This document shows positions 2,156 to 58,155 of a DNA stretch of 64,000 bases, piece by piece. Positions within the stretch are counted from its first letter, which is position 1, and every line of letters starts with the position of its first letter. The notes beneath the pieces were generated by a model. That model saw nothing but the letters and a program-made list of their open reading frames with translations. It had not been told where the DNA came from and ran no database searches. Both the position numbers and the translations under genes were made by a program. The DNA is from Rhodocollybia butyracea. Lineage: Eukaryota; Basidiomycota; Agaricomycetes; Agaricales; Omphalotaceae. The DNA lies in the NCBI GenBank assembly GCA_015501585.1, contig JADNRY010000085.1, positions 124,001 through 188,000 on the forward strand. The letters run 5' to 3'.

Positions 2156-2407
2156 TGTAACGCCTCCCCCTATCCATAATCACCACTGACCGTATCCGGC
2201 GATACGGTCATCCTAGACGCCGCCGATAGACCAAACGGTCTATCTTATATTCTATTTATTATTAATTATATAATAAATCCGTTACTATAAGTATCGTACA
2301 ATTACTTAAGAGTCTAGTTAGTCTTTTACACCGTCGTACACACAATAGTATCCTATTTGTCGTGTTCACCGGTGTTCTTAAGGACTTTGCCCATAGGGCG
2401 CGTTATA
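2156..2407 (+). repeat. 5' LTR of gag-only element
   Basis: 252 bp, starting TGTAACGCC and ending GCGCGTTATA. It contains two adjacent perfect hairpins: GACCGTATC-CGGC-GATACGGTC at 2188-2209 and GATAGACC-AAAC-GGTCTATC at 2225-2244. Related LTR sequences occur at 36483-36708 and 61625-61809. Confidence 0.92.
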
Positions 2408-5218
2408 CTTTTTTGAACATCAAAAAATTACTATTGTGTGAATAACACAAAGCTATTAGTTAAAACAAGCTAAAAACAGTTATACTACCAAGTATAACAA
2501 TCATTATTCCAACTCGCTTCACAAGCTATACAAACCCGCTCCATTTTTCCTTCTCGCTATATCATTTGCTGTCCCCATGACCTCTCGAAATCAATCAGAG
2601 AAGTCACATCAGAGTGTGCGCGATCGCGCACCTTCCAGTCGTGGTGACGTGTCACCACACTCAATCTATTCAGTCGCATCAGCGACTCATTCTGTACATG
2701 CGTCTGAAAGACAGCACTACAGGCAGGACAAGAGTCCACCTAATGAACAGTCTATGACTATTCATAAGAAACGGCCAACCCGAGAGGGTTTAAGTGAGAT
2801 TTCTTCTGTGCTACAAGATGTAGCGGCATCACTCGACAAGAGTACGCAAGTACTCAATTGTATTCTCAATATAACTGAGAAATGGGATGCATCTAGCATC
2901 CGATCTAATGAAGAAAGATCTTCTTCATCGAGAAACAGCAATAGAATCACTATTGCTGCACCCACACCGAGACGGACTACCGTCACACCACCGGTATTGC
3001 ACAATGCAACACCATATATTCATACCGAGACAAACAACTCGGTACGCCAATGGCGTGAGACTGTGCCCAAGGCACCGTCAGTCCAACAATCACTGTTGGA
3101 CAAACAGTATTCACAAGGGATGACCAAGTCACCCCGTCATGTTCCTGTATTCCGACAGGAATACGCACCAGTGTCAGTAACTATACCGACACCCATCTGC
3201 ACATCCCGCATGAGACAGAGTCCCAATGCGGAGGCAGCGTCTCTGACACTGCGAGGTCCCAGGCCATTACCGGTGACCAAATCTTGCTCACCACAAAGCG
3301 CGGTGAACATTAAAAGTGAACCGAAGTTACCTCGTAACTTCAATCAGGTAGTAGCGATACAACCACAGGAAAGTACAATTTACTTCCCTACTGCAAGGGC
3401 GCCAATGGTACCCAATATTATTACACCTCCAGTAGTTGTACCAAACACTACTGGAAATCATTCCAGTATGGGACCGCAACACGGTATCCTTACGGTAGTT
3501 CCTACTACCATATCCATCGCCCCGGCGACACAAAGTGTTGCCCCTCCGGTAGTACACACTACCGTAAGACTGCCCAAATTGCCGCCCAGCAATGCGCCAG
3601 AGCCAAGTTCAATGCCAGTACCAACGGTATTGGCTGAGTTGCAACCACAGCCGCTTCCATTGGGAGTAGCTAAAGATTGGATGAGTCGCATAGCGATTCA
3701 ACGCCAACATAACACCAGTCTCCGAGATTTCGGATTCGCGCCATCTGGGCTTCCCGACCAAATGGTGGGATATAATGTCGACGGAATACCCGTTGATAAA
3801 TTGACTACTCCCAGAGAAATCTGGGATCGATTTTACATTCCACCCGCTGAGTCCTTTCCAGGACCAAGCAATAATGCCGGAGCGAAAGCGCCTAGCAAAA
3901 AATCCCGTGAAGGGGGAGGAAGCACAAGAGTGCTAAATCCAAAGGCCGCAAACGCAGGCCATGGTCGGATGAATCATCTGACTCTAGTGATACCGAGTCA
4001 AATACTGACTCTTTGTCTGATGCCTCTTGGCTAGACAAATTTGCTACCCGTAAGGGTAAAATTACTCCTAATGAGCGCCGTAAAATACTGCGTTCACTTG
4101 CATCTAAGATGCGAGAAACAACAGGTGACGACGAACGTCGTTCCCGATGGAAACACAAGGTACACAAAGTGTACCGTAAACAAATTTGAGATAAGGTAGG
4201 GAATCCTATCCCTCCCATTGAGAGCCCTAAAGCTCTTAAAGTTCCATCTCCGGAGGTCTATGACGGATCTCCGGATGTCGATGTCTTCGAGCGGTGGCTA
4301 ATGTCACTTCTCCAATGGATGGTAGTCAACCGCATGTGCGGTGACGATTACGATGCTACACGGACTGCCGTGCTTGGCATGTTTCTAAAGGGCAAAGCCC
4401 TTGACTGGTATAACGACGAAGTCGCTGGTATACACCGCACTGTCCTTAAGTGGACATTTGAAGTCGCCATTATTGGTGTCTTTGATCGTTGCATCCAAGC
4501 AACGACCATTCATCAAGCTGCACGGCAGTTTGACCTTATTGAGTATTCACCCGATACGGGTGTGAGGGATTATTATTCCTCACTTACACAATGGGCATCA
4601 CGGATGCTCCAAACACCGGATGATGCAACAATGCGGAAACGGTTCATTGAGGGATTACCCTTCAATATTATCAGGCAACTCACGAACGAGGGGATTGTTC
4701 CGGAGTATGCCAAATTAGAAGTGATGGTCAGAGCCGTCACACGCATTGAGGACCACACGGCCCTCACTAAATATTATGTCTCTTCTAGGAATAGAGACGA
4801 TGAACTTGAATCATCAGAACACCCCGATGAGTTGGACACCGAGAACATTAAAAATGTTCTTGAGCCAATCGAGGAGGACACCTCCTTAAGTATCGGAAAG
4901 GATAAACCTTCCGAATGATTTATTGGTTTATTCCAACGCCCAGGTAATATGCCTTACCTGGGCATCACTACTTATCCTCAGCCCGGATTCTCACTGAGAA
5001 TCCTCATTAAGCAATACTCGGAAACTTCCGAGTCTGCGCGTTGAACATTCGGACATTTCCAAATCAAATCATGCTCTAGTGGTACGCCCCACTATTGTTT
5101 GATTCGGACAAGTCCGAAAATCTGATGCGCCGCATCAATTAATCCCGTACTTGATACGGGATCATTCTATGTTAAACCAAATTAAAAATGGTTTGGATGG
5201 TGATGATGTCATTACCAT
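2188..5218 (+). repeat. Dense array of short perfect inverted repeats (hairpins)
   Basis: Read directly in the sequence. Examples with stem/loop: 2479-2498 (8/4), 2616-2631 (16-bp palindrome), 2641-2658 (8/2), 2840-2855 (6/4, loop GCAA), 2908-2928 (8/5), 3023-3044 (7/8), 3081-3101 (8/5), 3147-3164 (7/4), 3323-3341 (8/3), 3428-3455 (9/10), 3547-3564 (7/4), 3809-3826 (7/4, loop GAAA), 3995-4011 (6/5), 4159-4175 (7/3), 4388-4402 (6/3), 4486-4505 (7/6), 4548-4562 (6/3), 4842-4860 (8/3), 4938-4963 (10/6), 4985-5003 (8/3), 5016-5033 (8/2), 5103-5118 (7/2), 5142-5162 (8/5) and 5197-5218 (10/2 with one wobble). Each has a different sequence, so this is not a tandem repeat. Confidence 0.85.
2577..4918 (+). 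pseudogene. gag-like protein of the LTR element (one frameshift, one stop)
   Basis: The coding frame starts at ATG 2577 and runs to about 3911 with Ser/Thr/Pro/Gln-rich, low-complexity sequence. It then shifts frame in a G5 run at 3911-3916, where one base appears missing. The shifted frame reads through a basic stretch (KGRKRRPW) and a Ser/Asp/Glu-rich stretch, crosses one in-frame TGA at 4187-4189, and continues to the stop at 4916-4918. The last ~200 codons hold a retrotransposon gag domain with FLKGKALDWYNDEV and a downstream RQFDLIEYSP...VRDYYSSLTQW region, as in Ty3/gypsy capsid proteins. No CCHC knuckle is seen. Protein role: capsid assembly and RNA packaging (family knowledge). The lesions suggest this copy does not make full-length Gag. 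Confidence 0.8.
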
Positions 5219-5249
5219 TTTCGATTCACATCCCTGATGTTAATCTGGT

Positions 5250-5257
5250 GGGGAGGG
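5250..5257 (+). other. Polypurine tract of gag-only element
   Basis: GGGGAGGG lies directly against the TGTAACG start of the 3' LTR, the expected position for the plus-strand primer. Confidence 0.8.
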
Positions 5258-5510
5258 TGTAACGCCTCCGCCTATCCATAATCACCACTGACCGTATCCG
5301 GCGATACGGTCATCCTAGACGCCGCCGATAGACCAAACGGTCTATCTTATCATTCTATTTATTATTAATTATATAATAAATCCGTTACTATAAGTATCGT
5401 ACAATTACTTAAGAGTCTAGTTAGTCTTTTACACCGTCGTACACACAATAGTATCCTATTTGTCGTGTTCACCGGTGTTCTTAAGGACTTTGCCCATAGG
5501 GCGCGTTATA
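5258..5510 (+). repeat. 3' LTR of gag-only element
   Basis: 253 bp, the same as the 5' LTR except CTCCG for CTCCC near the start and one extra C in ATCTTATCATTC. It is followed directly by the target duplication TGTCA at 5511-5515. Confidence 0.92.
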
Positions 5511-6649
5511 TGTCATAATTTATCAAAATCATCTTGATGCCTTTGTGCTGCCCTATACCATAGCTTAACATAACTCTTTCACTATTTTAGTGTTTGAGCT
5601 GCATGTTTTTTCAATAATGGTGCATCTTCATTCCAAACAGATAAGAAACTTATAGGCACCAAATAGGTACAATAGTTCATACATTTATTCACTGTATGTC
5701 AGTAATCATGACATTCATATTATGCTAATGACATACCTCATACTTTCTATATATCTTTACTAAGACCTGCAACATCTACAATGGATAAACAGGGACATTC
5801 ACTTTTCATATACTCATTATAGTTTTATTATTCATAGCATAACTTACATAAACCAGCATTCCGTAGTATCAGCATTGCATTACTGAAGATTCATAAAATT
5901 ATGTTAAACATTATTTATCTTTAGTGTAATTCCAGCATATATTCTCCATGTTCTGCAATTAATAATGAAGATGTGTTTGCATGATTATGGCTCATTATAG
6001 GTAAAAAACTGGAGTATAACTTGAGCAAAATTATAGCATATATATAGCATTACTTTTTTGCATGTTGCTTATATATATTACAAGCAATGAATGACATATA
6101 GGAGCTAGATATCTACATTTGCTAAACATATATATCTCACAATTATGGCACATTATATGTAAAAAATCAAACATCTACTTCTCATAAGTTCAGCAAAATT
6201 TATAGCAGACATTTTGCATAACTTTTCCATACATCTTACAATTAATAGAAAACATATATGCATTATTTATATATGTTTGCTCAGCATACATATTTCATAC
6301 TTCTTGCTCCTTATAAAGAAGAAACCAAAAAGCGGCTTCTCATAAGTTCAGCAAAATTATAGCAGATGTTTTGAATAATGTTTCTGTATGTCTTTTGTAT
6401 GTAGCACCAGCAATGAGGGATGTATAAGCATTATATATTGACTGGAAGCACTGTGTTTCCACCATATGTTCAGGATGACTTTTGCCCCTTATACATATTT
6501 AATTGTAAATCTATATGTCTCAGCTTTAACATGATTTTACAATGTTTTCAATGAAAGCATTAGAAAATATGTGAATCCCACTTGGTGAGATTTTCACATT
6601 TGTTCAACATATATCATGGCAAATCACGTGAACCTGCATCCAGTGTATG

Positions 6650-26215: not shown

Positions 26216-28516
26216 TCAATTAAAGAGAATTCCAAGACTGTTGCGGAATTTCTGAAATTTGACAAGTGCAAGGTTCTTCGTGAGAAGATCTGCAACATTA
26301 TCATCAGTAGGAACATAGAAGAGTTCTATTTCTTTTGATTCAATGCGTTCTCTGATATAATGATATCGTATATCAATATGCTTGGTTCTTCTTTCTTGTA
26401 CAGGATTAGATCCCAGAAAGATTGATCCTTGATTATCACCACATAAGGACAATACAGCGATAGTAATTCCGATCTCAGAAAAGAGAGACTTGAGCCACAT
26501 AAGTTGTCTACATGAATCAGATAAAGCCATGTATTCAGCTTCAGTTGATGAAAGAGCAACTGTTTTCTGTTTATGAGAAGTCCAGCAGATTGGACCTGTG
26601 GCAAGTTTGATAATCATCCCAGTATGGGATTTTCGATCATCTGGATCTGACGCCCAGTCAGAATCACAATAGGCTAAGAAGCCATGGTCAGATCTACCAT
26701 CAAAGACAAGTACGTAAGTAGAAGTCCCAATTAAGTAGCGCACAATGTAAAGTGCTTTGGCCAGGTGGTCTGGGTTTGGATTCGCCGAATACTGTGAGAG
26801 TTTTATAACGGCATAAGCAATGTCGGGTCGGGTGCCTAGCATCAGATACAATAAAGATCCAATTACGCTTTGGAAGCGTTGTCTAAGTTTGGCATCTACA
26901 CGACCAGTGTTTGCACGAGGAACCCAGGATGAAGGTAATGGGGTTGGGGTGGCTTTGGCGTTAGTTAATCCAAAACATTCTATGACCTTTCGAAGATAAG
27001 GTTGTTGGTCAAGTGTTAAGACACATTTGGAATGATCCCGTGTAATCCGCATTCCAAGGAACTCAGTTGGTTCTCCTAGATCACGACATTCCCATAATTT
27101 CATAAACTCGTTTTTCTTTTTAAGAACAAGATCTTTGTCCTTGCCAAGAAAGAGTGCGTCATCAACATAGATGATGGCAGTTACGGTTTTGCCATTTGAT
27201 TTAAAGACATATACACCAGCATCTGAAGAGCAGCGCTTAAATCCCAATTTTCCCATGGAGGCGTTACATTCCTTCCACCAGGATAAGCTAGCTTGTTTCA
27301 GTCCGTATAATGCACGATGTAACCGCCATACTTTTGGTGTGCCTTCTTTAATGAAGTCTTTAGGTTGTTCCATGTAGATCTCTTCATCTAGCTTGCCATA
27401 AAGAAAAGCCTGTTTGATGTCAAGAGCCTGGATTTCCCAGTCCTCTAATGCGGCTAAAGCTAGGAGAGTTCGTACAGTTTCAAACCGGGCAACCGGTGAG
27501 AACAACTCATTATAATCCACACCTTCTACTTGTGAAAAACCTTTTGCTATGAGTCGGGTTTTATAGCGACCGTCAGATTTTTTAGTAAAAACCCATCGAC
27601 AACGGATAGGTTTGCGACCTTTTGGTAGATCAACTACTTCAAAGACATTTCGTTTCTTCAAACCATCGATCTCATCTTTGCATGCTTGATCCCATTTCTT
27701 TCTTTCAGCAGATGGTAAATGACGATATGATGTTGGAGAAATCCAATTATCAGGATTATTCCTAGCGGCTTCGTGTTTAGCCGGTACCATTTCACTGTCA
27801 AGATCTGTGATAAAAGATGATTCTTCTAGAGAATCGGAGATTGCTTGTGAAAGAAGGTATTTTTGTAATTCAACTCCCCCTTCCTGAGCTAGTTTAGTCA
27901 GAAGTGCTTCCTCTTCTATGTCAGAATCCGGAGTAGCGCCTGGAGGTGGCGGTGTGACCATGCGGTCATCAGGATTCAATGGACGTGGTGGTGGAACTTG
28001 ATCAGGAACTATATTGCAAGCAGGCACAAGTCCACATCTAGCGTGTCCAAAGCGCTCAGCACGTTCTTCACGATCAGCTTGTCGGCTCCAAGTGCCAGGC
28101 GTGGGTATCATGCCAGGGCGCAAGGGTGCACGGCGTTCTCTAGTGGGGTTCACACGTTTCCATGCTTCAACGTCTTCGGGACGGTAGCTGAATGGGTTAG
28201 GATCGGGAGCAGGTGGTGAAGGGTCTCTTGCTTGAGGTGGAGGGGTGGGTGATCGAGATGGTACCGGAGGATTGGGATTTGGAGCATCATCATCACCAGG
28301 CAGATCTGGATCTGGGCCAGCTGGTGGACTGTGCGGTCCATTATCCGGTTCAGTAAATGGTTGTGGTTGATCTTCCGGGAATTCCGGATCAAATGGAATG
28401 TCTGCACCATTACCATTTGAAGGTTGCGAAGGTTTCACAGGCGTGGGGGCAACAGGTATAGCGGGACATGTACTCCTGTGGAATATGAGAATTGCCACCA
28501 GGACTCCGGGCAGCAT
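26216..28516 (-). pseudogene. copia reverse transcriptase-RNase H region
   Basis: A long frame that after a Pro-rich linker (PVPSRSPTPPPQ) contains the copia RT start (DEIDGLKKRNVFEVVDLP, RWVFTKKSDGRYKTRLIAKG), the catalytic YVDDALFLG, and the RNase H motifs DSDWASDPDDRKSHTG, ALSSTEAEYMAL and RRTKHIDIRYHYIRE. It copies element RNA into DNA and degrades the RNA strand. The RT and RNase H core reads intact. The frame is offset from the integrase frame because the integrase C-terminus and about 150 linking residues appear deleted, so it is no longer part of a continuous polyprotein. Confidence 0.9.
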
Positions 28517-28980
28517 GCATGGTGTCGCATGGCTTCGGATTTTTCCATGAGTGTACGGTTGATACGTTCCGCTCTACCATTCTGTTGATGAACATAAGGT
28601 TTGGACATTTGAATATCAATACCCTCAGACTTGAGAAAGGAAGTAAATTCCTTTGAGATAAGTTCTCCCACTTGATCAATGCGGAAACGCACAAGTTTGC
28701 GTCCAGTTTGTTTTTCAGCCCAAGATTTGAAATCCTTGAAGGCTTGAAACGCTTCTGATTTTTGTCGCAGCATGATCGAAGTAGCATGAGAAGAGCAGTC
28801 ATCCAGCAGAGTGATCACAAATTTAAATTTATGATAAGAGACATTCGGAATTTCAACCAAATCTGCGTGGATTAAATCCATAGGGTTGGATGCTTGTTTC
28901 TCAGACTTAGGATATGCTTTGGAGGCAGCCTTTCCAAGCGCGCAACCTTTGCATGGAGATTCTTTATTTGGTATCGACAA
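28435..28980 (-). pseudogene. copia integrase core, truncated at both sides
   Basis: The frame opens in the zinc-binding tail (CKGCALGKAASKAYP) and carries the rve catalytic core: IHADLVEI, then RIDQVGELISKEF (canonically a DNGGEF-type segment), then YVHQQNGRAERINRTL with the Glu. It stops in WWQFSYSTGVHVPLY, where the frame is lost. The H..H half of the zinc-binding domain is absent between the upstream frame end at 28982 and this frame. Confidence 0.85.
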
Positions 28981-28981
28981 C

Positions 28982-30763
28982 TTAGGTAGCTATCTCAGAT
29001 TTCACTACATCGGCCTTTAGCCAGTGAATATTATCACTGTCGTTATTGGGATATAAGGTCATGATTGTTGAGTCATCATCTGTCTTACGAATAACTGATT
29101 TCTCAACGTTAATAGTTGTGTAGCAACCCTGTCGATTTAATAAACCAACAGATAGAAGTTGGTGTGTGCAATGCGGTTGGTAAAACACTGGGTGTAACTT
29201 AGTCGTGAGGATTTTTCCTTCGCCATTGTCATGCCTTATGTAGACTGTTCCGGCACCTTCAATAAAGGTTGATGTACGTTCATCAGCAGTCTGGACAGGT
29301 ATCGGATGTGTGAATTTTTTATAAGACACAAAGTCTTGCCGATAAGAGGTAAAATATCCAGATGCACCGGAATCAAGCAGCCATGTGTTAAATATTTGAC
29401 TAAGGTTCTTATTCGCACCATGCACATCATTAGAAATCATTTTATTTAATTTACCCTCGCTAGGAGGTACAGAGTTCAAGAAGCGTGGAGAATGTGATAC
29501 ATAAGGTCCATTTGGACCGTTCGATATTCCAGCCATATTATTGAACATCTGTTGTAATGAGTGCAATTGGTCAGTGAATTTTTCCTTAAAACTATTAAGG
29601 GAAGCTTGCCAGAAAATAAGGCGCTCGTCTCCAGAGCCATACATTTCCTCGTCAATGTCCATTTCGAGTTTAGTCTGAGGCCAAAGGTGATCAGAGAGAT
29701 CGACCTCTACTTCCTCGATCTTCATCCTGTCAAGGACGGAGTCGTGGGAGGCTTCACGGAGGAAGCTGTTGTTAATGCGCGAGGCAAGGCAGGTGGCGAA
29801 ATTAGAGACATTGGAAGTCTCCACTTCAGCCGATTCATGAGCCTTTTCTTTGCCTTTTCCTCCTTTCTTTCCGCGGCGTGTCTTTTTGTCTTTGTCAGAA
29901 GTAGAGGACGAGTCATTGGAAGGTTTGCTTGCCGGGTAAGGCGCTCCCTTCTTAGTGTCCTTCTTCTTCTTCTGATCATTCCAAGAGGACTTGGAGTCAG
30001 ATTGACATTTGACGCCGGAGATGCGGGCCGCGAGCGAGGTAGCATTGGATTGGCGGCCGCGGTACTCATCCTGAATAATCGGCATGATGTTGGACAGAGT
30101 AAGAAGAGTAGCATCTCGAGAAAGGATTGTCATCGCAAGACTGTCCCATTGAGTAGGTAAGGCGGCCAAGAGAATCATAGCTTTTACCGGTTCGGGGAGA
30201 ATGAGACCAGAGCCATCAAGGCGGGAGAAGGTGGAGTTTAAAGATGCTAGGGCAAGAGTAGGGTCGTTTCTTCCGTCGATTTGGAAGTTAATGGCCTCTT
30301 TGAAGATGCCAAAAGTGCCGGCAGAGCCGGGTTTGCCGTAGATCTTTTTGATTTCTTCCCAAGTTTCGCTAGATTCAGTTTTTAGGACAGTAGCCCTGAT
30401 GTCATCAGGAAGTCGGAGGGCAATTAAGCCCATGGCTTGGTCGTCAAGACTGTCCCAGTCGTCAATCTCTTTCTGCCGTTCAGCAGTGGTGGTCTCAACG
30501 TCTTCATTAGCCTTGTAAGTCCTTGCGGCAATTTCATCGGCAGTAGGTTTTCGATATGTTGGTTTGGGGCGAGGGATTCGTCCACATACAACAGACCAAC
30601 AACGAGAGGCTCTAAGGAGCGCTGTCATTGAACTGGACCAGGAGGGGTAGTTAGCCCCATTGAGGAGAGGAACACTAGAGAGGTTTGAGAGAGACATGTT
30701 TTGATAAGGTTCTAGAAAAAGTAGAGCAACAGTCAGTGACGTGCTTCCACAAGTTATGAACAC
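28982..30763 (-). CDS. copia gag and protease
   Basis: 593 codons. The N-terminal half is a UBN2-type copia gag (LLNGANYPSWSSSMTALL near residue 35; ETWEEIKKIYG near residue 130; LPTQWDSLAMTIL). A Lys/Ser-rich basic region replaces a recognisable CCHC knuckle. Near residue 460 is the aspartic protease motif WLLDSGASGYFTS, followed by LLSVGLLNRQG and the start of the GAG-pre-integrase region. It ends early at ADVVKSEIAT. Gag would form the particle and the protease would cleave the polyprotein. Confidence 0.88.
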   Translation of the reverse strand: MFITCGSTSLTVALLFLEPYQNMSLSNLSSVPLLNGANYPSWSSSMTALLRASRCWSVVCGRIPRPKPTYRKPTADEIAARTYKANEDVETTTAERQKEIDDWDSLDDQAMGLIALRLPDDIRATVLKTESSETWEEIKKIYGKPGSAGTFGIFKEAINFQIDGRNDPTLALASLNSTFSRLDGSGLILPEPVKAMILLAALPTQWDSLAMTILSRDATLLTLSNIMPIIQDEYRGRQSNATSLAARISGVKCQSDSKSSWNDQKKKKDTKKGAPYPASKPSNDSSSTSDKDKKTRRGKKGGKGKEKAHESAEVETSNVSNFATCLASRINNSFLREASHDSVLDRMKIEEVEVDLSDHLWPQTKLEMDIDEEMYGSGDERLIFWQASLNSFKEKFTDQLHSLQQMFNNMAGISNGPNGPYVSHSPRFLNSVPPSEGKLNKMISNDVHGANKNLSQIFNTWLLDSGASGYFTSYRQDFVSYKKFTHPIPVQTADERTSTFIEGAGTVYIRHDNGEGKILTTKLHPVFYQPHCTHQLLSVGLLNRQGCYTTINVEKSVIRKTDDDSTIMTLYPNNDSDNIHWLKADVVKSEIAT

Positions 30764-31428
30764 AGATCACAACAACAAAGTCGGAAACCCATGACAAGTG
30801 TTTTCAGTGTTGATCGCATATAATTATCCATCCATTTTCCATCCACTGATCCGATCATTCCAATTCGGACTCAGTCACTTAAGTTGATCGGAACACAAAT
30901 AGGGTAACTGAATGCCAAGAATATGCGTTCAGTCAACGTTCAGATGTGCTTTGCAGCACAATCGAACAGTATCCCTTCAGCATGTGAAGAACTTAAGGCA
31001 AGCAGCAGGTAGGTAATGTGTATGTATAATTATTCTACGAAGGCCAAGAACCCAATGATCATTCGCAGTTTGCCAGCGGATGCACATGAACGCTTTTATG
31101 GCTATTATAGCGGTGACCCCAAGTCTACCTGGCAGGGAATAAAACCCTAAAGGGAATGCCATCACAGCAAAGCCCTTAAACAGTTCGTTTGATCATCGGG
31201 TGCCTATGTAAATACATGTGTGTGTCAGTGTGCAAAGTCATGTATATTTTTGAACAATGCAGGAATGGAGAGAAATGCAATCCATGAATGTTACCATGTA
31301 CCATGACCAGCTATGCACAACACGCGAACTTCGTACACTCCAGGAATGAGCGTTGGATGTTCATTGAACACTGTCTAACCAAGTGTAGTAAGCACATTGG
31401 AGGGCACAACATGTGTTGAAGCGATCCG

Positions 31429-41055: not shown

Positions 41056-41330
41056 TGTTGGATAATAAAATAGAACACGATATTACCACTCAGGATAATA
41101 TATAGCACAACGGCAGAATAGAGTAAAAAGCACAATATATTCCGTTTGCCCCCTACAGCACTGAGAGAGGGGCAATCGGATGAGGTAGCGTATATCTTGC
41201 TACTGCTTATATACTGGTAATGGGGGTGATAGGAAATAAGTACGTGTAAGTACGTGTCAATAATGAGTGTGAGATAACTATGAGCTTGATCAATCATAAC
41301 AATGATACTGATATCTGCTGATATCCAACA
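41056..41330 (-). repeat. LTR (3' LTR on minus strand) of another LTR element
   Basis: 275 bp beginning TGTTGGAT and ending ATCCAACA (8-bp inverted ends). Directly right of it the minus strand has a purine-rich tract GCGGGGAAG, expected before a 3' LTR. The minus strand carries a TATATAAGCAG promoter-like box. It joins the end of the Plavaka-like gene. Confidence 0.7.
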
Positions 41331-41690
41331 CTTCCCCGCAAGCTTATAGTTAGTCGAACAAATAATAAAACAAATGTAAACAATATACCAATCAATCAAC
41401 TTCTGCATTAATTCCACCCAATAATCTGTGTGCGTGCAACATAGTAGCTAACTTTCGAGCAAAACACTTTGATGTGGAAAAATGATCTGATGCAATGAAT
41501 GGCCTCGAAATGATCTGTTCAACTCACAATATGAACAACAACGTATGTCCGTCTGGTAGCATGCCTCTGATGCCTGTCCAATGTCCAATGCCTTGTCAAA
41601 TACACAATTTGACACTAAATTTGCGCTACAACGCGATGGGTCTGCTCTGATCAAACACACAGTTTGATCCCAATAAGTGTTCTCTTCACT
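41331..41690 (-). mobile_element. 3' internal fragment of the LTR element at 41056
   Basis: About 360 bp continuing from the LTR; a short minus-strand frame (KLATMLHAHRLLGGINAEV) could be the polyprotein C-terminus. The rest of the element and its other LTR are absent. Confidence 0.45.
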
Positions 41691-41826
41691 TCAGGCAGCC
41701 CCTCTACCACCCATATTAGGGTAAATACCCTGTGTCAAGAATTGCCCTAATATGGCCACTTCAGGCAGCCCCCCATTGCCCCATATTAGGGTAAATACCC
41801 TATGTCAAGAATTACCCTAACAAGGC
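41690..41826 (+). repeat. Tandem duplication of a ~68-bp unit
   Basis: Two adjacent copies of CTTCAGGCAGCCCC...CCATATTAGGGTAAATACCC...TCAAGAATTRCCCTAA. Each unit is itself partly palindromic (TTAGGGTAAATACCCT, CCCTAAT). Confidence 0.75.
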
Positions 41827-42261
41827 CTAAATCTTGGAGTTGTACCACACCTTGGATGCATCCACCCTATTGAAAATAGCTCTGGTACCATCCTCTGATG
41901 GGAGTACCCATGGTGGATGGTACTACCATGGATGCATCCACTGTGGGTGCTCCCCCATCTTTAAACCCTAAAAATGACTTGTGCGTAAGTCAGTGACCAT
42001 CATGGTCACATACTTAAGTGCTCTGAGCCCTTGAACCCTCTGAGCCCGGCCTTCCTGAGCCCTAGCCCAGCCCGACCCACTTAAGGCTTGGACACGGCTC
42101 AGGGCCGGGCTGAGATTTTTCCAAGCCCTGGGCCCGGGGCCTGAGCCGCGGCTGGTGAGCGTCAAAATGCTGCACTCGGCGCATTCGGCATCTGATAACT
42201 GCATAGTTCCTGAGTCAGCCTGATATGTGCCGAGTCATTTTTCTTAAAGTCTTTCACAAAC
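41827..42261. other. Probable 5' flank of the hAT element
   Basis: Contains a palindromic tract around CCATGGTGGATGGTACTACCATGG (41908-41931) and a GGGCCGGGC / GCCCGGCC-rich stretch at 42040-42150, a composition often seen near hAT termini. A terminus CAGTGACC near 41990 is possible but unproven. Confidence 0.35.
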
Positions 42262-45124: not shown

Positions 45125-46128
45125 TTAAAAACCTTGTTGACGTAGTCTGATAGCTGCAAGCTGTAGTTCAGCTCTCACAGCAGGATTGTCTCTGATGTAA
45201 ATTTTCCATGCTGTAGAGGACCATCTCCCCAAGGCCATGATAATGGATTCATCAAGACCAAGTCCAGAGTAGAAAGTAGCGCCCCCAGCTCTAGCTGAGT
45301 GCCCACCAAACTCTCTGCTTACAACAGCATAAAACATAGACTCAAACCAAGCACGGTTTGGTAATGAACCATCCTCACAAATGAACAAGGCAGGCCTAGC
45401 TCCATGAAGCTTGTCTCTAGCACTGGTGTACTCCTTTAAGAGTGAGACAGGGTTAGCAAATTTCTGAGAACAGAAGAGAATATCTGTTCCCTGATAGAAA
45501 GGATCACTCTTGTGATAAGGCAGATGATAGCCAGCTTGTGCCAACTCAAGCTTTAAAGAAGCTCTTTTAATTATTTTCTTCCAATCAAACAGTGATTGGG
45601 AATGGTGAGCTCTCCAATCCGGTGACAGCCATAAAAAGCACAGCTAATGATTGTTGCAAAGAGGAGATGGTTGTAGGAGAGGTGTCTGATTTCATAAAAC
45701 TGCAGAATGTGTGAAGTACGCAAAGGAGGCTTGCGCTTTACAGGATCAGCTCGAACCTTTTTTGATCCTCTGATGGTTGCTTGAACCAGAGGATTGGATC
45801 TAGATTCATCAAAGTTTGGATAGAGCTGTTTAAGATAGTGTCTTGCCCCAGTGAGATACTTGGGGCCAGAGGCAATGTGTTTGGATGTGTAGGCAATGTA
45901 GCGGGATAGAGTAGATGGAGTTGGGTCCAAAGAGAGGTTATGAGAGGTGCAAAAGCGAATATAGTCCCTAGCACCAGTAGAGTAGTTGTTTTTAGTTGAC
46001 TTTTCAATGGCTTGAGATTGGAGAAACATAACTAGATCATCCAGTTTTCTCAAATCCATTGGGGGGCGAACAGAGCGGTTTTTATGACCACTCTGTTCAC
46101 CCAGTGCCTCTAAAAGGACTCTCTCCAT
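45125..46128 (-). pseudogene. Tyrosine recombinase of the Ngaro-like element (one frameshift)
   Basis: The N-terminal SAM-like core-binding region (IEKSTKNNYSTGARDYIRFC) and the first catalytic Arg in FYGCHRIGELTIP (about 45610) are in one frame. The rest is one frame over: LFDWKKIIKRASLKLE, DILFCSQKF, then GGHSARAGGATFYSGLG (His and second Arg) and STAWKIYIRDNP with the nucleophile Tyr. All members of the R-H-R-Y tetrad are present but are separated by a 1-bp frameshift at about 45590-45600. The gene overlaps the end of the RT frame by 19 bp. The enzyme would integrate the circular DNA copy by strand exchange through a Tyr-DNA link. Confidence 0.88.
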
Positions 46129-48020
46129 CGCGCCGGCAGTAGCTCTCTTGGGGGCTCAAAAAGGCGGACGCAATCTGCAGGGAATTGAAGCTTGTAATCA
46201 TCCAACAAAAGGCGGGACAATAAGTCTGCTCTAATGTTAGACTTTCCAGCAATATGTCTCACTCGAATATCTATTCCAGTGTTGAGAACAATACCAGCAA
46301 TAGCCAAGAGAATAGCATTGTGGGATGATTCTCTAGCTGAGAGTGAGTTGAGAACCTCAACAGAGTCAAGGCTATCAGTATGAATGAGGATGAGGCGAGG
46401 TGGAGTGGCCTTATGTGCTACATGATGAAGAAGGCATAGAATGGCAAGAAGTTCTCTGAAAAAGATATCCACTTTGTCTTTGCCTTCCCCAGGATGGACT
46501 TTATAACAAAAGCCATTTCCAGCATAGACATAAGAAAGACCAACATTGCTAGCATCAGTCCAGCCTATAAATTCAGCCTCAGAGTCCTTCCAAGCCTGTG
46601 AATCCACAAAGCGGATCCCAATGGCAGTCTGAAGCAATTCAGAGAACCAAGTCAGATCTCTCATGACTTCACCATTAATAGGAATGGAGCGAAATTGAAG
46701 AGTTTTGCCACTCATTTTCCTGTACATCTCAGTCAGGGCTGGCCTGGCCCATGGTAGGACATTGAGAGACCAATTGAGAGAACCAGACAGTCTCTGCCAA
46801 TCTCTCAAAGCAGCTTTTCTCTGTGGTGAAGCTAGGAATTTGGTGATGTCTGCAATCAGAATCTGAATGGACTCTGCTGTGAGTGAAATAGATCCCTTCA
46901 TAATATCAAGCCAGAAGCCAATGATTTTTAGAGTGACTCCAGCTTCCTGCTTTCTATCTTCATAGGGACAGCAAATCATATCCCAGAAGACCAAAAGTTG
47001 GACTTGTCTCTGAGGTCGAAGTTGATTGTGGAACATAACCAGATTTCTCTTAAAGTCCCACCCAAAGAAATCATCCATGTAAACATGCAGGCCAACAATT
47101 CCCAGCTTAACAGAACCAAACCAGCAGAGTAGAGCAGATAAACTGCACCAACAGCGAGGCGAGGTTCGAGTTCCAAACACCAGATGGCGCACAATGTGAT
47201 ATCTTCCATCTACAGAAACCACTTGACAGAGTTGCCAAAGTGGATGGCCAGGGAGATTCAGAAAAGCCTTGGAAACATCACTTTTAAAGAGAATGAGCTC
47301 TTCATTGGGATGTTCTTTCAGCACATCATTAATGATTTGACCAAAGGTGTGCATGTCATCATATTTGACCTTCCCCTCAGATCTGGGAATGTTGTCATTC
47401 AAACCAGAGCTAGTTTGGTCCATTACAACTCGTGGTTTTCCCTTCTGCCAAACTACAAACATTGGTGAAACTCTCATTCCAGGTAGAAGAACAAAGTCTT
47501 CTGGTAAAGCTTTTGACCACCTCCCAGCTGCAACTTCCTCATCTCTGTGGGCTCTCAAAGCAGCCACATCTTCAGGTTCAGAGACATAGTTCTCAATTCT
47601 CTGTTTGGATTCATCTTCCCATTCAGCATCATAAAATGGCCAAAAGCCCTCTCTCAGAGATTGCATAACTGATCTAACAAATGGCTGATTAGGATGAGAG
47701 GATAGTAGAAGCTCTAAGCGGTCCACATTAAATGGAGTCTCCACTTTAATATATGATGCCATGGCTTTAAGAGTGGATTGAATCTGAGGATTGTTTAAGA
47801 GATGTTTGGGAGGTGTAGGCAGAGGAAGTGCAGTGTAAGAAGAAGAAATGCTTGGTGGAATGATATCTGAAGATAATGATGAAGAAGACCATAAATAGCC
47901 CCTTCTAAACCTTGGACCAGAGTCTAAGTAGCTATCTGATGGCCTTTTGAGTGATTTAGGCCCTTGAAGTGCGCTTTTTACTCTGGTTTCGACGTCTTGT
48001 AGTGAGTTTACTGTAGCAGG
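46110..48020 (-). CDS. Reverse transcriptase-RNase H of the Ngaro-like element
   Basis: DIRS-type RT with MFVVWQKGKPRVVMDQTSSGLN, LILFKSDVSKAFLNLPGHP, HLVFGTRTSPRCWC and the catalytic VYMDDFFGWD (YxDD). The RNase H follows: EFIGWTDASNVGLSYVY, FFRELLAILCLLHH, LILIHTDSLDSVEVLNSL and HIAGKSNIRADLLSRL. No stop from about 48020 to 46110. The same frame stays open upstream to 49550 across the gag gene, but that portion is Leu/Ser-rich and looks like an overprinted shadow, so the true start, or a frameshift from gag, lies near 47950-48020. Confidence 0.88.
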   Translation of the reverse strand, partial: PATVNSLQDVETRVKSALQGPKSLKRPSDSYLDSGPRFRRGYLWSSSSLSSDIIPPSISSSYTALPLPTPPKHLLNNPQIQSTLKAMASYIKVETPFNVDRLELLLSSHPNQPFVRSVMQSLREGFWPFYDAEWEDESKQRIENYVSEPEDVAALRAHRDEEVAAGRWSKALPEDFVLLPGMRVSPMFVVWQKGKPRVVMDQTSSGLNDNIPRSEGKVKYDDMHTFGQIINDVLKEHPNEELILFKSDVSKAFLNLPGHPLWQLCQVVSVDGRYHIVRHLVFGTRTSPRCWCSLSALLCWFGSVKLGIVGLHVYMDDFFGWDFKRNLVMFHNQLRPQRQVQLLVFWDMICCPYEDRKQEAGVTLKIIGFWLDIMKGSISLTAESIQILIADITKFLASPQRKAALRDWQRLSGSLNWSLNVLPWARPALTEMYRKMSGKTLQFRSIPINGEVMRDLTWFSELLQTAIGIRFVDSQAWKDSEAEFIGWTDASNVGLSYVYAGNGFCYKVHPGEGKDKVDIFFRELLAILCLLHHVAHKATPPRLILIHTDSLDSVEVLNSLSARESSHNAILLAIAGIVLNTGIDIRVRHIAGKSNIRADLLSRLLLDDYKLQFPADCVRLFEPPRELLPARWRESF

Positions 48021-49593
48021 AGGAGTGGTCAATGGCTCTGTGAGCCTCACCACATTCACTGCAAAAACCATGCTTCCTGTTATTGAGACAAGGCTCTGCA
48101 CACCTGTCATCATTCCAGAGGATACATGGTGTATCAGATCTCTTAGAACTTGGCCTAGATGAAGAAGAAGATGATCCAGGAACAGGTCTTTTCTTAGAAG
48201 AACTAGAGAACATTTCTTTGAGAGTGAGAAGCCTAAGGTTCTCAGAGGCCCCCAGGTCAAAAGGAGTATTAGAGGCCTTTTGTCTAGCCTCTCTATCCAC
48301 TCTGATACCCATGGAAGGATCATTAGGAGTGACTCTGAAAAGTTCCTGAATCTGAGTCTTGTAGATATTGAGCTCAGTCTGCCTATGAGGATAGATCTTG
48401 AGCAGAGGCACCAGCCAAGATTCAAAGACTCTAATCCACTGTGACTCAGTAGTAACTGGCAGACTTCTGATAGCATGGTCCTTGTGAACCAGCTTGAATT
48501 CCTTCCCAAAATCTCTACTATCTTCATAGAGATAGCTGAACCCATTAATGGCAGCATGGATCTTTTCAAAGTCAACATACTTGTCCTTAATGATGAGGCG
48601 AAGTATGGACTGAGGCAGAGGATCAGTAAAGATCTGAGCTGAGAGGAGAGCCAGTGTAGCATCCACATTATTGTCCTGAGTGAACTGAAGTCGCAAGTCC
48701 CAGGTCTTTTGAACATGAGGAGGCATGGGAGCTGAGGTGGTAAGTGCAGCAATGTGTGGAGCGGCCTCAAGAAGTGAAGCAGGAAGTCCACCAGTGGCCA
48801 TACCAATGCTATTGAGGGAGGGCTGGAAGAGAGGTAGGTCTCCAGGCTGTTGTTCAATCTCATTCTCATCAGAGTCTCCATTGAGAGCTGTAAGCAGTGC
48901 TTGATTCTCTGCAAGTTCTCTCTCCATGAGAGCCCATGCAGCAGCTTGGGCAGCTGCCTGGGCTGTAACAGCTTCATTAGGAGGAATATACTCTCTCTGT
49001 TTCTCCTTTGCAGCAGCTTTCCTCCTTTTAGAGGAAGCAATCTCATCTCTCTGGGCCTGGAGCATCTGCTTAACATAGTCTGCAACAACATCAGAGTTTC
49101 CATTACTGTGTACTCTGAGCTCTCTGACAGCTTCCTTGATCTCAATCTCACCATTCCTGAACTGCTCCACAAGTGAGTCCATGGTAGCAGCAGCAACCCT
49201 GATAGCCTCAGCTTCTCTGGCACTCTCAGAGGGTCCTGGAGAGTCCTGAAGACGAGACAAGAGAGATGGGGAGGTTGGTGAGTGATGTTCAGTATTGGGA
49301 TTGGATGAAGAGATGACAGGAGGGTCTGTGAAGCGAGCTTGCAGTGATCTGGAGCCCAAGGGAGCAGCTGAAGTGCTGTTCTGAGTCCCAAGTGTGCTGG
49401 AAGAGTCACCAGATGTAACCTGAGAGGGCTGTAATTGTGCTGGATGACTCTGGGTAGCAATAGGGTTGGAACGATGTGACCTGGAGCTAGTAGGGAGGAG
49501 CCTAGAAGATGTAGGCCTCTGAAATGAGGAGGAATCATAAGCATGATCACCCTGGGGCTCTTGATAGACAGAACCAGCTCGAGTTTTGGACAT
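47956..49593 (-). CDS. gag-like protein of the Ngaro-like element
   Basis: Start chosen at MSKTRAGSVYQEP (ATG 49593), about 545 codons. The N-terminus is Ser/Pro-rich; the middle is helical and charged (EAVRELRVHS, QMLQAQRDEIASSKRRKAAAKEKQ). A conserved-looking block (KTWDLRLQFTQDNNVDATL, SQWIRVFESWLVPLLKIYPHR) precedes a Ser-rich basic stretch and a Cys/His cluster near the C-terminus (CILWNDDRCAEPC, GFCSECGEAHRAIDHSSC), likely nucleic-acid binding. Fungal Ngaro elements have such an upstream gene. Confidence 0.8.
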   Translation of the reverse strand: MSKTRAGSVYQEPQGDHAYDSSSFQRPTSSRLLPTSSRSHRSNPIATQSHPAQLQPSQVTSGDSSSTLGTQNSTSAAPLGSRSLQARFTDPPVISSSNPNTEHHSPTSPSLLSRLQDSPGPSESAREAEAIRVAAATMDSLVEQFRNGEIEIKEAVRELRVHSNGNSDVVADYVKQMLQAQRDEIASSKRRKAAAKEKQREYIPPNEAVTAQAAAQAAAWALMERELAENQALLTALNGDSDENEIEQQPGDLPLFQPSLNSIGMATGGLPASLLEAAPHIAALTTSAPMPPHVQKTWDLRLQFTQDNNVDATLALLSAQIFTDPLPQSILRLIIKDKYVDFEKIHAAINGFSYLYEDSRDFGKEFKLVHKDHAIRSLPVTTESQWIRVFESWLVPLLKIYPHRQTELNIYKTQIQELFRVTPNDPSMGIRVDREARQKASNTPFDLGASENLRLLTLKEMFSSSSKKRPVPGSSSSSSRPSSKRSDTPCILWNDDRCAEPCLNNRKHGFCSECGEAHRAIDHSSCYSKLTTRRRNQSKKRTSRA

Positions 49594-49636
49594 CAAATAG
49601 TTGAGATAAAGATGTGTGAAGTATGAGCAAGGAGAA

Positions 49637-50351
49637 TGATAGAAAAGTGGCTTGATCAAGCTAGATCTAAGCCAGATACCAGTTAGTATACTTCTACAGA
49701 CATCAGCCCTGATCTGTACACACTGAGAGCCTTGATATCCAAAGATCTAACAGCTAGATTGATTTAAGAGGCAGTATAGGTGTATAGATCTGTATGGATG
49801 TGTTATAGGCTCTGTTCAGTGTAAGATCAGCGAAAGACTCGAAATGCATACCTAATCCTTGTATCTAAAGCACTGTATGCAGAGCTAGTACTTGTATAGA
49901 TTTAAGGATTGTCTATAAAGGTGATGTTTGAGCTATCAGAGCTGTGGAAAGGGGACAGATGTCCTTACCAGCCACCAGAGACAAGCAAGATGATGGAGGA
50001 AGGGAAGGGAAGGAAGGAGCAATGATTCGACTCAGAGGCTTTTCTGGCGACCACAGGCCTCTGCACAGGTCCCTGGCACCTGTGGGAACCAGCCACTGAA
50101 TATACACACTGCTCCAACATCTGTCAAAACTTGAACTTGTGATATCTTTGGAACGAGTTGGAAGAATTCTTAGGTTGTTAGGCCGTTGGATTCGTATTAA
50201 AAATGCGCTCATAATGATACCAGATATGACCTATAACTGTTGTTGAGCAAAAAGTGCAGCACTGCTGCAAGGTTGTACAACTTTAAGCTCATCAAACAGG
50301 TCATATCTTGGGAGGTTCTTCTCAGAGTATTTTGGGAGTGGTACTGTTGGA
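49637..50351 (-). repeat. Split direct repeat A1
   Basis: 715 bp, the element's 5' terminal repeat. It should contain the promoter for the retroelement genes. Its outer end, TACTGTTGGA, borders unrelated sequence at 50352. Confidence 0.92.
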
Positions 50352-56383: not shown

Positions 56384-57827
56384 CTGACCCGGATCCACAG
56401 GATCCAGGTACCCATTCCCATGTAGCCTATTTGTAGCCCTGATGTTGCCTACTTGTAACCTATCTGTAGCTTTTGTGTTGCCTGCTTGTAATCTATCTGT
56501 AGTCTATCTGTAGCCTATCTGTAGCCTATCTGTAGCCCATCCATAGCCTATCTGTGCCCCTGGTGTTGCCTACTTGTAATCTATCTGTAGCCTATCTGTA
56601 GTATATTTTTAGCCTTGGTGCAACCTATTTGTTGCCTATTTGTCACCTTGGAGTAGCATATCTGTACCTTTGGTGTTGCCTACTTGTAATTCATCTGTAG
56701 CCTATCTATAGCATATTTATAGCCTTGGTGTTGCCTGCTTGTAATCTATCTATTTGTAGCCTTGGAGTTGCCTACTTGTAACCTATCTGTAGCCTTTGTC
56801 ATGCCCTAGGCATATACAGACTGCCGACGTTTCCTGCTTACCATTACATAATCCGCTTCCGCCGCATTTCCGGTTCCAATACACTTCCACTTTGCTTCCG
56901 TTTTACTTTTTCCTTCACTGTACACTTTCTATGATCCCGTCGATCCATTCTCCATCATTCTTACAATCATACATATGCTTTATGCTCATCCCGCCGCTTC
57001 TGCTTATGTTCATTGTTGTCTTTCATCCCTTGTACTTCTTTTGGCTATTCTTGTCTTTTCTACTCTCAGATTATTACCTATTGCTACTCCGGTCCTCGAG
57101 TACCCTTTATATAGTTCTGTACCATGTCAAGTACAGTAGATTGGAAATATTGCTTAACCCCTTGACTCGTGTGCTCTTGTGTGTTCTGGTTTCTCGCTTT
57201 ATCTGTTTCTTTAACTCTGTTTCTTCACTCCATCGTTTTCACAACCTCTGCAATTTACTATCATCTATTTGGTTCCACTCTGTTTGCGCCGCATCAGGTC
57301 AGCTACCGCTTGACCTTCCACTTCCGCTCATATCGCTATCAAAGCTGCTTGCACTTAGTGGGTCCTACCCTTCGAGTTGGAAACTCATCTACTCTTAGGC
57401 TTACTTGCCGAGTTCATTCCATCACCAGTACAGACCTTCTGTCCCTACATTAGTCCCTTGGACAATCCCAACATGAGTCTTACATCCCATAGGCACTTTG
57501 GAACCGTTCTACACTCACATCCTTTCACATCTCAAACCAACTTTCCCAGTTCGGCTGAACGACAGAAGTATGGAGCGTATCTGCACTTTGGTTTCCAGGT
57601 TTGTAACCTGCGCTCGAAGGATTCTGCCTAGATCCTTACAGCCTTTGTGTTGCCTGCTTGTTGCAGCAGCTTGTAATCTATCTGTAGTCTATCTGTAGCC
57701 TAGCTGTACCCTTGACGGAATCTATCTGTAGCCTATTTGTAGCCTCCGAGTAGCATATCTGTAGCCCATCAATAGCCTATCTGTGCCCCGGGTGTTGCCT
57801 ACTTTTAATCTATCTGTAGCCTATAAA
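56384..57827 (+). repeat. Satellite arrays flanking an 850-bp unassigned segment
   Basis: 56384-56419 carries the GACCCGGATCC core of the MITE at 57828. 56420-56800 and 57640-57827 are TATCTGTAGCC-type minisatellite. The segment 56800-57640 between them is different sequence with long open frames on the plus strand; the frame at 56796-57398 is Leu/Phe/Ser-rich and reflects pyrimidine-rich DNA rather than a convincing protein. It may be an inserted remnant of another element. Confidence 0.55.
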
Positions 57828-58155
57828 GATGGACACAAGTCCAGCTCTTTACAGGTGACCCACTTGGTTTAACCTGTGGAAATACCCGCCTGACCTGGAT
57901 CCGGCTGATCCAGGTACCTGTTCCCACAGGTGCGGGTCAGGTCACAGGTCAGCCCTTGGGGATTTTCAGACCTATAAAGTATATTTTAAGTACAAATACC
58001 TACAAATACCTGCAGGTTGACCTGCATGGCCCGGATCCGGCGGATCCAGATACCCGTTTCCCACGGGTCCGGGTCAGGTCACAGGTTGTGTTTTTTTGGG
58101 TGCAGGTACCTGTGCAGCAGGTCCGGGTTTACCGGGATCTGGACTTGTGTCCATC
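57828..58155. mobile_element. MITE, complete copy (GATGGACACAAGTCCAG family)
   Basis: 328 bp with perfect 17-bp terminal inverted repeats GATGGACACAAGTCCAG and CTGGACTTGTGTCCATC. The interior is rich in GGTCAGGTCACAGG, CCGGATCC and ACCTGTGG words in both orientations. It lies within the minisatellite; the right part is present at window positions 1-160. Confidence 0.75.

Follow-up and report, generated by a model that had tools for sequence, protein, structure and literature searches.

Why should a retrotransposon carry short hairpins along its whole length, within its genes as well as outside them? The question is raised by a long terminal repeat (LTR) retrotransposon of the basidiomycete Rhodocollybia butyracea, found in a stretch of 64,000 nt (contig JADNRY010000085.1, positions 124,001 to 188,000; hereafter the window) of a genome assembly of 95.6 Mb in 1381 contigs. 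An earlier note, made from the letters of the window alone, had described an LTR element saturated with short, non-repeated hairpins between positions 2188 and 5218. The element is indeed there, and its true extent is wider: it spans 2156-5510, including both LTRs, and the LTR pair, a polypurine tract and a 5-bp target site duplication (TSD) are all present. Its hairpin saturation is real, strong and independent of the encoded protein, and it probably reflects selection for a folded RNA.

Hairpin density in the window copy and its relatives

Hairpins were counted over 2156-5510 as non-overlapping perfect stems with loops of 2-10 nt and compared with 200 dinucleotide shuffles; the LTR hairpins, four in each copy, are thus counted twice in the total. 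The element holds 47 stems of at least 6 bp where the shuffles hold 5.86 (sd 2.35, maximum 13), 27 of at least 7 bp (1.69 shuffled), 19 of at least 8 bp (0.38 shuffled, maximum 2) and 7 of at least 9 bp (0.07 shuffled). The large excess over random sequence that had been estimated roughly is thus borne out, and all 14 of the perfect stems of 8 bp or more listed in the earlier note were found, with starts within 1 base; the one at 2616 is present but is a loop-less 16-base palindrome. No repeated unit was found behind the hairpins, and the listed stems all differ in sequence, so that tandem repetition is no explanation. Across 110 other 3355-bp segments of the 64 kb the mean is 8.9 hairpins and the maximum 17, and neither two unrelated elements of the window nor the flanks have an excess at stems of 7 bp or more (the right flank holds 2 stems of at least 8 bp vs 0.5 shuffled).

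The excess extends, as claimed, from the LTR through the leader and gag to the 3' region, being clear in the second gag frame (ORF2) at stems of at least 6 bp only. It is lost when the codons of the two frames are shuffled synonymously: in 200 such shuffles, stems of at least 6 bp number 3.5 (maximum 8) against 18 in ORF1, and 1.3 (maximum 5) against 8 in ORF2. Neither the dinucleotide nor the codon control reaches the density of the element.

On its sequence the window copy, assigned to family A, is a young gag-only member of a Ty3/gypsy lineage. There are three further families in the same genome, B, C and D, with 30-38% divergence in a gag segment. Family B (locus L061) is 57-65% identical to A in gag. 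Family C (locus L074) is a full autonomous Ty3/gypsy element with the domains RVT_1 (E 9e-28), RT_RNaseH (9e-28), Integrase_H2C2 (3e-16) and rve (6e-9), in that order; its zinc knuckle falls under the cut-off, its DSG protease motif was recognised by eye, and the stretch analysed ends before the 3' LTR. Family D (locus L076) is a stop-broken relative, 84% identical in reverse transcriptase (RT). Stems of at least 6 bp occur at 13.9 per kb in A, 12.6 in B, 12.2 in C and 11.9 in D, where shuffles give 1.5-2.0, and despite this equal density the hairpins of the four families are mostly different ones. Family C departs from its synonymous shuffles as strongly as the window copy does from its own, with 45 hairpins vs 6.6 in gag-pro, 17 vs 3.2 in RT and 28 vs 5.6 in RNase H-integrase.

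Hairpin saturation is therefore a property of the lineage, common to the four families sampled. Over 79 partly overlapping loci, element-covered DNA has 13.1 hairpins per kb vs 2.8 outside, where "outside" may hold element parts too diverged to align. In another family-C copy (L075) a 3.4-kb foreign insert is hairpin-poor, and the element on both sides of it is hairpin-rich. A distant Ty3 fragment (946 bp, 34.5% identical) has 3 hairpins vs 1.9 expected. RT matches listed in the genome are 72-100% identical and the next ones fall to 43%, a gap that makes the hairpin clade seem separate; among the best 120 of 544 RT relatives, those carrying an organism name come from Trametes, Pleurotus, Lyophyllum, Armillaria and Meripilus.

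Pooled over families A-D, the fold excess rises with stem length, from 1.8 at 5 bp to 4.9 at 6, 27 at 8 and 95 at 9. It is confined to short loops (212 vs 19 hairpins with loops of 3-6 nt, 72 vs 15 with loops of 7-10 nt) and vanishes above loops of about 18 nt. The 130 triloops are closed by C-G in 55 cases and by G-C in 11, and 37 of them (28%; shuffle 12%) are of the A..A type vs 8 of the T..T type, the A-rich ones lying on the sense strand. Among tetraloops, 17 of 103 are G..A (16.5%; shuffle 7.6%). The several GNRA loops that had been pointed out do exist, but in modest number (7 among 57 tetraloops, where the reverse-complement class accounts for 1). The codon register of the stems in C (33/30/25) is uninformative, and families A (0 vs 4.0) and D (2 vs 5.4), unlike B and C, have fewer 5' splice-site motifs than their shuffles.

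Probable selection on a folded sense RNA

Hairpins this dense along the whole length, even within the coding genes, suggest that the element depends in some way on its folded RNA. We consider it probable, on the comparisons that follow, that genome-scale ordered RNA structure (GORS), here local in kind, has been selected in the sense RNA of this Ty3/gypsy lineage. The genomic RNA would be kept as a chain of short independent hairpins, with stems of about 5-10 bp and loops mostly of 3-6 nt, roughly one per 50 nt across LTR, leader, coding and 3' sequence, the autonomous family included. The target of selection would be the total density or stability of the hairpins more than any individual one, so that hairpins would come and go at constant density. 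Within coding sequence such selection would work largely through synonymous codons. The density, its spread along the element, its occurrence in four families and its independence from protein sequence are direct observations; that selection acts, that the sense RNA is its target, and the nature of the benefit are what we infer. The preferred benefit would be a compact RNA that is shielded from antisense pairing, RNAi guides or nucleases and that is readily packaged into virus-like particles. Dicer requires longer stems than these.

Six single-stranded RNA (ssRNA) phages (MS2, fr, GA, SP, PP7 and AP205) served as yardsticks. They carry 3.2-7.2 stems of at least 6 bp per kb, so that the element families are roughly two to four times denser. 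The folding gain over synonymous shuffles, in kcal/mol per 120 nt, is -10.3 to -12.0 in five element segments, -6.4 to -10.3 in eight ssRNA-phage frames and -1.7 to -2.5 in four control frames. Mean z in sense 120-nt windows is -3.7, -3.1, -3.2 and -2.4 for A to D, and -0.6, -0.6 and -0.1 for controls from the window. The paired fraction is unremarkable (0.55-0.59 in the element, 0.58-0.62 in phages, 0.51-0.54 in controls); the peculiarity of the element is local, perfect pairing rather than overall paired fraction.

Folding is also asymmetric between strands, the gain being larger on the sense than on the antisense strand in A, B and C, and not clearly so in D. With synonymous shuffles, the sense-minus-antisense difference is -1.81 +- 0.44 kcal/mol per 120 nt in the element, -1.74 +- 0.52 in phages and -0.58 +- 0.48 in controls (hand-made inverse-variance means over five element segments, eight phage frames and four controls). 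For families A to D it is -2.55, -1.48, -1.09 and -0.25, and, with G-U pairs disallowed, -0.15, -0.52, -0.16 and -0.10. The direction of the strand evidence thus points towards the sense RNA, as an incomplete proof.

Further evidence comes from the evolution of the stems; pair counts made without removing CpG sites are superseded. Between C and D, divergence at non-CpG stem sites of pol is reduced (0.175 vs about 0.24, p 0.0004; in reverse, 0.151 vs about 0.25, p 4e-7), and compensated non-CpG pairs are in excess there (14 vs 4.2 and, in reverse, 9 vs 2.6). Conserved RT residues carry no fewer hairpins than expected (0.612 vs a null of 0.531 +- 0.058), as illustrated by a hairpin over YRSKID, where mean conservation is 0.96. 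When the gag domains of the four families are folded together, the consensus does better than column shuffles in all 9 overlapping windows (z -1.1 to -10.9), a gain that comes partly from conserved sequence and not from covariation. Two covarying pairs are present in the hairpin at 4486-4505. The 37 C stems aligned to D pair completely in 7 cases, carry a single mismatch in 18 and at least two in 12, with 2 more unaligned; for 38 D stems aligned to C the figures are 14, 13 and 11, with 4 more unaligned. Stems of one family are thus often imperfectly paired in its partner, so single hairpins appear to turn over with density kept.

Changes from C to T and from G to A at CpG, on both stem arms, are common among the A and B copies compared, and such changes on both arms of a palindrome mimic compensatory change; the type of difference suggests CpG methylation of the elements. 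Where young copies seemed to show compensation, it was read as mostly the transition of CpGs that face each other, family B's CAATCA/TGATTG difference was read as paired CpG decay, and a lower stem polymorphism first seen among copies was gone at site level.

Several results weigh against selection on a sense RNA. Stems in gag-pro of C and D are not less diverged (0.473 vs 0.43, p 0.09; in reverse, 0.413 vs 0.46, p 0.20), nor are those of the gag domain in A, B and C, where two of six comparisons tend to more divergence (p 0.06 each). In gag-pro, 22 compensated non-CpG pairs stand against 18.1 and 20 against 13.2; the six gag-domain comparisons yield no significant compensation. Even in pol, once both sides have changed, compensation stands at 14 of 24 vs 10.3 (p about 0.05) and, in reverse, 9 of 13 vs 7.2 (p 0.19). 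Polymorphism among young copies is not clearly lower at stem sites (odds ratio, OR, 0.80, p 0.19 for shared variants; OR 0.99 for singletons). The sense-strand advantage exceeds that of control frames by no more than about 1.9 standard errors, and the copia-like element of the window, a control, shows a mild surplus of stems of at least 6 bp (16 vs 8.4). Single-sided stem changes, pooled over C and D, comprise 101 A-C and 64 G-U oppositions, without any G-U preference, and with both directions counted A-C is nominally in surplus relative to non-stem sites (OR 1.74, p 0.001). One-mismatch helices likewise include 42 A-C and 29 G-T (shuffles 6.8 and 4.5).

Base composition would largely account for the A-C surplus (about 90:75 expected, a hand estimate); the one-mismatch test is similarly weak in the RNA phages (G-T 25, A-C 17; shuffles 7.3 and 6.7); and shared stem variants are divided, with 11 G-U and 6 A-C in A and 4 and 12 in B. 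The suggestion that G-U pairing in imperfect stems marks an RNA role is not upheld, the mismatch counts showing no preference of G-U over A-C. Compensatory change, the check proposed, is weak between families when CpG sites and the clustering of changes are allowed for, and young stems are not clearly constrained. Selection for a hairpin-chain RNA is the best-supported reading, given the synonymous folding gain and the hairpins over conserved RT residues. A special tie to trans-mobilisation, also raised at the outset, is unsupported because the autonomous relative is equally saturated.

Other explanations for the hairpins

One form of selection on the sense RNA, rather than a competitor to it, would make the hairpins multiple packaging signals, that is, many putative Gag-binding sites, comparable to the stem-loops that bind coat protein in RNA phages. 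We hold this tentatively, as possible but clearly short of probable. Hairpins lie throughout the RNA in autonomous and gag-only members alike, and their tri- and tetraloops are A-rich; against this, there is no dominant loop motif (the commonest closing-plus-triloop class, CAAAG, makes up 9 of 130), and spacing is not regular but random, with a coefficient of variation of 0.64-0.69 vs a null of 0.62-0.68.

A quite different possibility is mutational. RT or DNA repair might switch template at near-palindromes and copy one arm onto the other, with no selection needed. Several features fit: arms match perfectly whatever their sequence, wobble asymmetry is slight, the property follows a single replicating lineage so far as the sampling goes, and young stems show little constraint. 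The hairpin at 4159-4175 supplies one clean loop inversion, AAA to TTT (its reverse complement) with intact arms, in two of 12 family-B loci (11 distinct copies). The scan for such inversions covered families A, B and part of C, and the other matches in its unmasked form, mostly misaligned flank, were left uncounted. An apparent 11-nt loop inversion at locus L042 was dropped, as this locus, a family-A copy, carries a larger inverted internal segment of about 0.9 kb (about 66-945, reoriented).

Other observations speak against this account. In 23 listed clusters of multiple substitutions among young internal A and B copies, some recurring in several copies, the best local stem exceeds that of the compared copy in 5, falls short of it in 5 and equals it in 13, and no clear instance of arm-to-arm copying was seen; 17 further clusters from LTR-centred loci were left out as mostly non-homologous flank. 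Where young copies carry double changes, these are mostly CpG transitions in pairs. Moreover, hairpins are equally frequent over conserved RT residues, where arm copying would usually alter the protein, and the loop and closing-pair preferences require an extra assumption. Palindrome-making replication, which the earlier note had offered beside selection, thus survives with two of its expectations unseen, arm copying and depletion at conserved RT residues, and we regard it as unlikely. A combination, in which RT template switching keeps turning near-palindromes into perfect hairpins and the lineage tolerates or uses the resulting hairpin-chain RNA, seems less likely still.

Selection might instead act on DNA or minus-strand complementary DNA (cDNA), where hairpins or cruciforms would assist integration or reverse transcription, or impede modification by the host. 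Both strands do fold far beyond shuffles, and A-C oppositions (G-T when read on the minus strand) equal or outnumber G-T ones. The larger sense gain in A, B and C and the sense-strand A-rich triloops argue the other way, and base composition would give an A-C surplus close to the one seen; we rate this account as improbable. Chance, low complexity, tandem repetition or protein composition is already refuted by the shuffles, which fall short whether of dinucleotides or of synonymous codons, and by stems that differ from one another, and no point was found in its favor.

Element anatomy and comparison with known systems

The coordinates of the window copy are collected in the table. It is judged a young insertion because its LTRs differ at only 2 positions. 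No frame of 120 aa or more lies between gag and the 3' LTR, and tblastn with the RT and RNase H-integrase of L074 gave no match in the copy, which is therefore taken as non-autonomous and gag-only. Gag is split into two frames here and forms a single frame of about 810-820 aa in several other genomic copies. A Pfam search with ORF1 gave no match, and ORF2 matches Retrotrans_gag weakly (E 0.025, 15.2 bits, under the curated cut-off of 24.1). Among the best 150 of 413 candidates in the genome there are at least 151 gag matches; of those listed, 12 are 57-63% identical and the rest 72-100%. All 40 of the LTR copies scored, the best of 399 candidates, matched. A foldback or miniature inverted-repeat transposable element (MITE) identity was ruled out, since the termini are direct LTRs and not long terminal inverted repeats.

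Features of the window copy (family A), in window coordinates
Feature	Position	Strand	Remarks
Left TSD	2151-2155	none	TGTCA; matches 5511-5515
5' LTR	2156-2407	+	252 bp, TGTAACG...CGTTATA; hairpins 2187-2210, 2225-2244, 2254-2278, 2288-2308
Post-LTR block	2408-2423	+	CTTTTTTGARCATCAA; primer-binding-site position; common to families A, B and C; overlaps hairpin 2409-2427
ORF1	2577-4034	+	N-terminal gag part
Hairpin	4159-4175	+	GGTACACAAAGTGTACC; retained by families A and B and, with a single G-U pair, by C
ORF2	4190-4918	+	gag domain
Hairpin	4486-4505	+	two covarying pairs over four families: 4487-4504 CG/AT, 4489-4502 TA/GT/AT
3' non-coding region	4919-5257	+	8 hairpins with stem of at least 6 bp (counted over 4919-5258)
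Named 3'-region hairpins	4938-4963 (10 bp), 4985-5003, 5016-5033, 5103-5118, 5142-5162	+	
Polypurine tract	immediately 5' of 5258	+	GGTGGGGAGGG
3' LTR	5258-5510	+	253 bp; differs from 5' LTR at 2 positions
Right TSD	5511-5515	none	TGTCA; matches 2151-2155

The block that follows the 5' LTR is, by eye, unlike the usual TGG-type tRNA primer-binding site. A search for self-priming there found longest exact complements of 8 nt in A and 9 nt in B, and none of 8 nt or more in C. Within the window there is nothing in Rfam at the gathering threshold and no tRNA gene. Homologues of Gag elsewhere were absent at E 1e-5 among 7993 candidates scored, and no relative was confirmed in viral contigs or prokaryote genome contigs.

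Other features of the window and of related loci were recorded in passing. The two unrelated elements of the window, at 26216-30766 and 45125-49746 (minus strand), were named by eye from their frames as a copia-like element and a tyrosine-recombinase (DIRS/Ngaro-like) retroelement. A smaller second hairpin cluster at 41300-42020 (8 stems of at least 6 bp in 600 bp) lies partly within two near-duplicate stretches with TAGGGTAAATACCCTA. Positions 1-1830 show, by eye, degenerate repetition of a CTATCTGTAGCC-like unit, with seemingly similar short stretches at about 57600-58300. The insert in L075 (5054-8424) amounts to one large inverted repeat (96% identity with its own reverse complement); it contains repeats of 140-190 bp and has few short hairpins. 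Beside a family-A LTR, L007:175-1464 (reoriented), a stretch dissimilar to families A-D, holds many variants of a repeated palindrome, TGTACAAGCTTTGTACA.

Genome-wide ordered RNA structure is already known from some RNA viruses. It denotes a pervasive folding excess, in coding and non-coding sequence, that is independent of the encoded protein. GORS has been described for persistent positive-strand RNA viruses (PMC3695492, PMC3950689, PMC7642675). The element resembles these genomes in a folding energy below shuffles along its whole length, whatever protein is encoded; it differs in being a fungal LTR retrotransposon lineage, in its short perfect hairpins, and in having no known link to persistence or innate sensing. 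With the ssRNA phages it shares local hairpins through coding sequence, a similar sense-strand advantage and a similar folding excess, at a higher density of stems. These phages replicate by an RNA-dependent RNA polymerase, not by RT.

Among retrotransposons, the Ty1 and Ty3 RNA of yeast is reported, in part of PMC11381356, which presents SHAPE maps for Ty3, to lie up to 30% within stable structured regions, with about 20% forming a well-folded core. These too are LTR-retrotransposon RNAs with stable folded regions, and Ty3 is the namesake of the same superfamily; a hairpin chain over the whole RNA is not described in that part of the source. The LTRs of maize Sireviruses contain clusters of folding palindromic motifs, a finding that a passage in PMC10760457 attributes to Bousios et al. 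2016. Clustered palindromes that fold in an LTR retrotransposon are a likeness, whereas in that passage there is one shared motif in the LTR cis region, and here no motif is shared and the hairpins run through gag and pol. Palindromes of the Sirevirus LTR type were accordingly rejected as an identity for the hairpins, whose stems differ and extend through coding sequence. No report of a hairpin-saturated retrotransposon was recognised in a search mainly of open-access literature.

In perfect local hairpins per kb these element families exceed all six of the RNA phages used as yardsticks. With over 100 gag matches and several diverged families, this one genome offers a natural experiment in which selection on RNA structure might be told apart from palindrome-making replication. 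If the selection proposed here is real, ordered structure of this kind can evolve in retroelements, bending the coding sequence of pol at synonymous sites, and such a non-protein constraint would affect codon-based dating and phylogeny of these elements.

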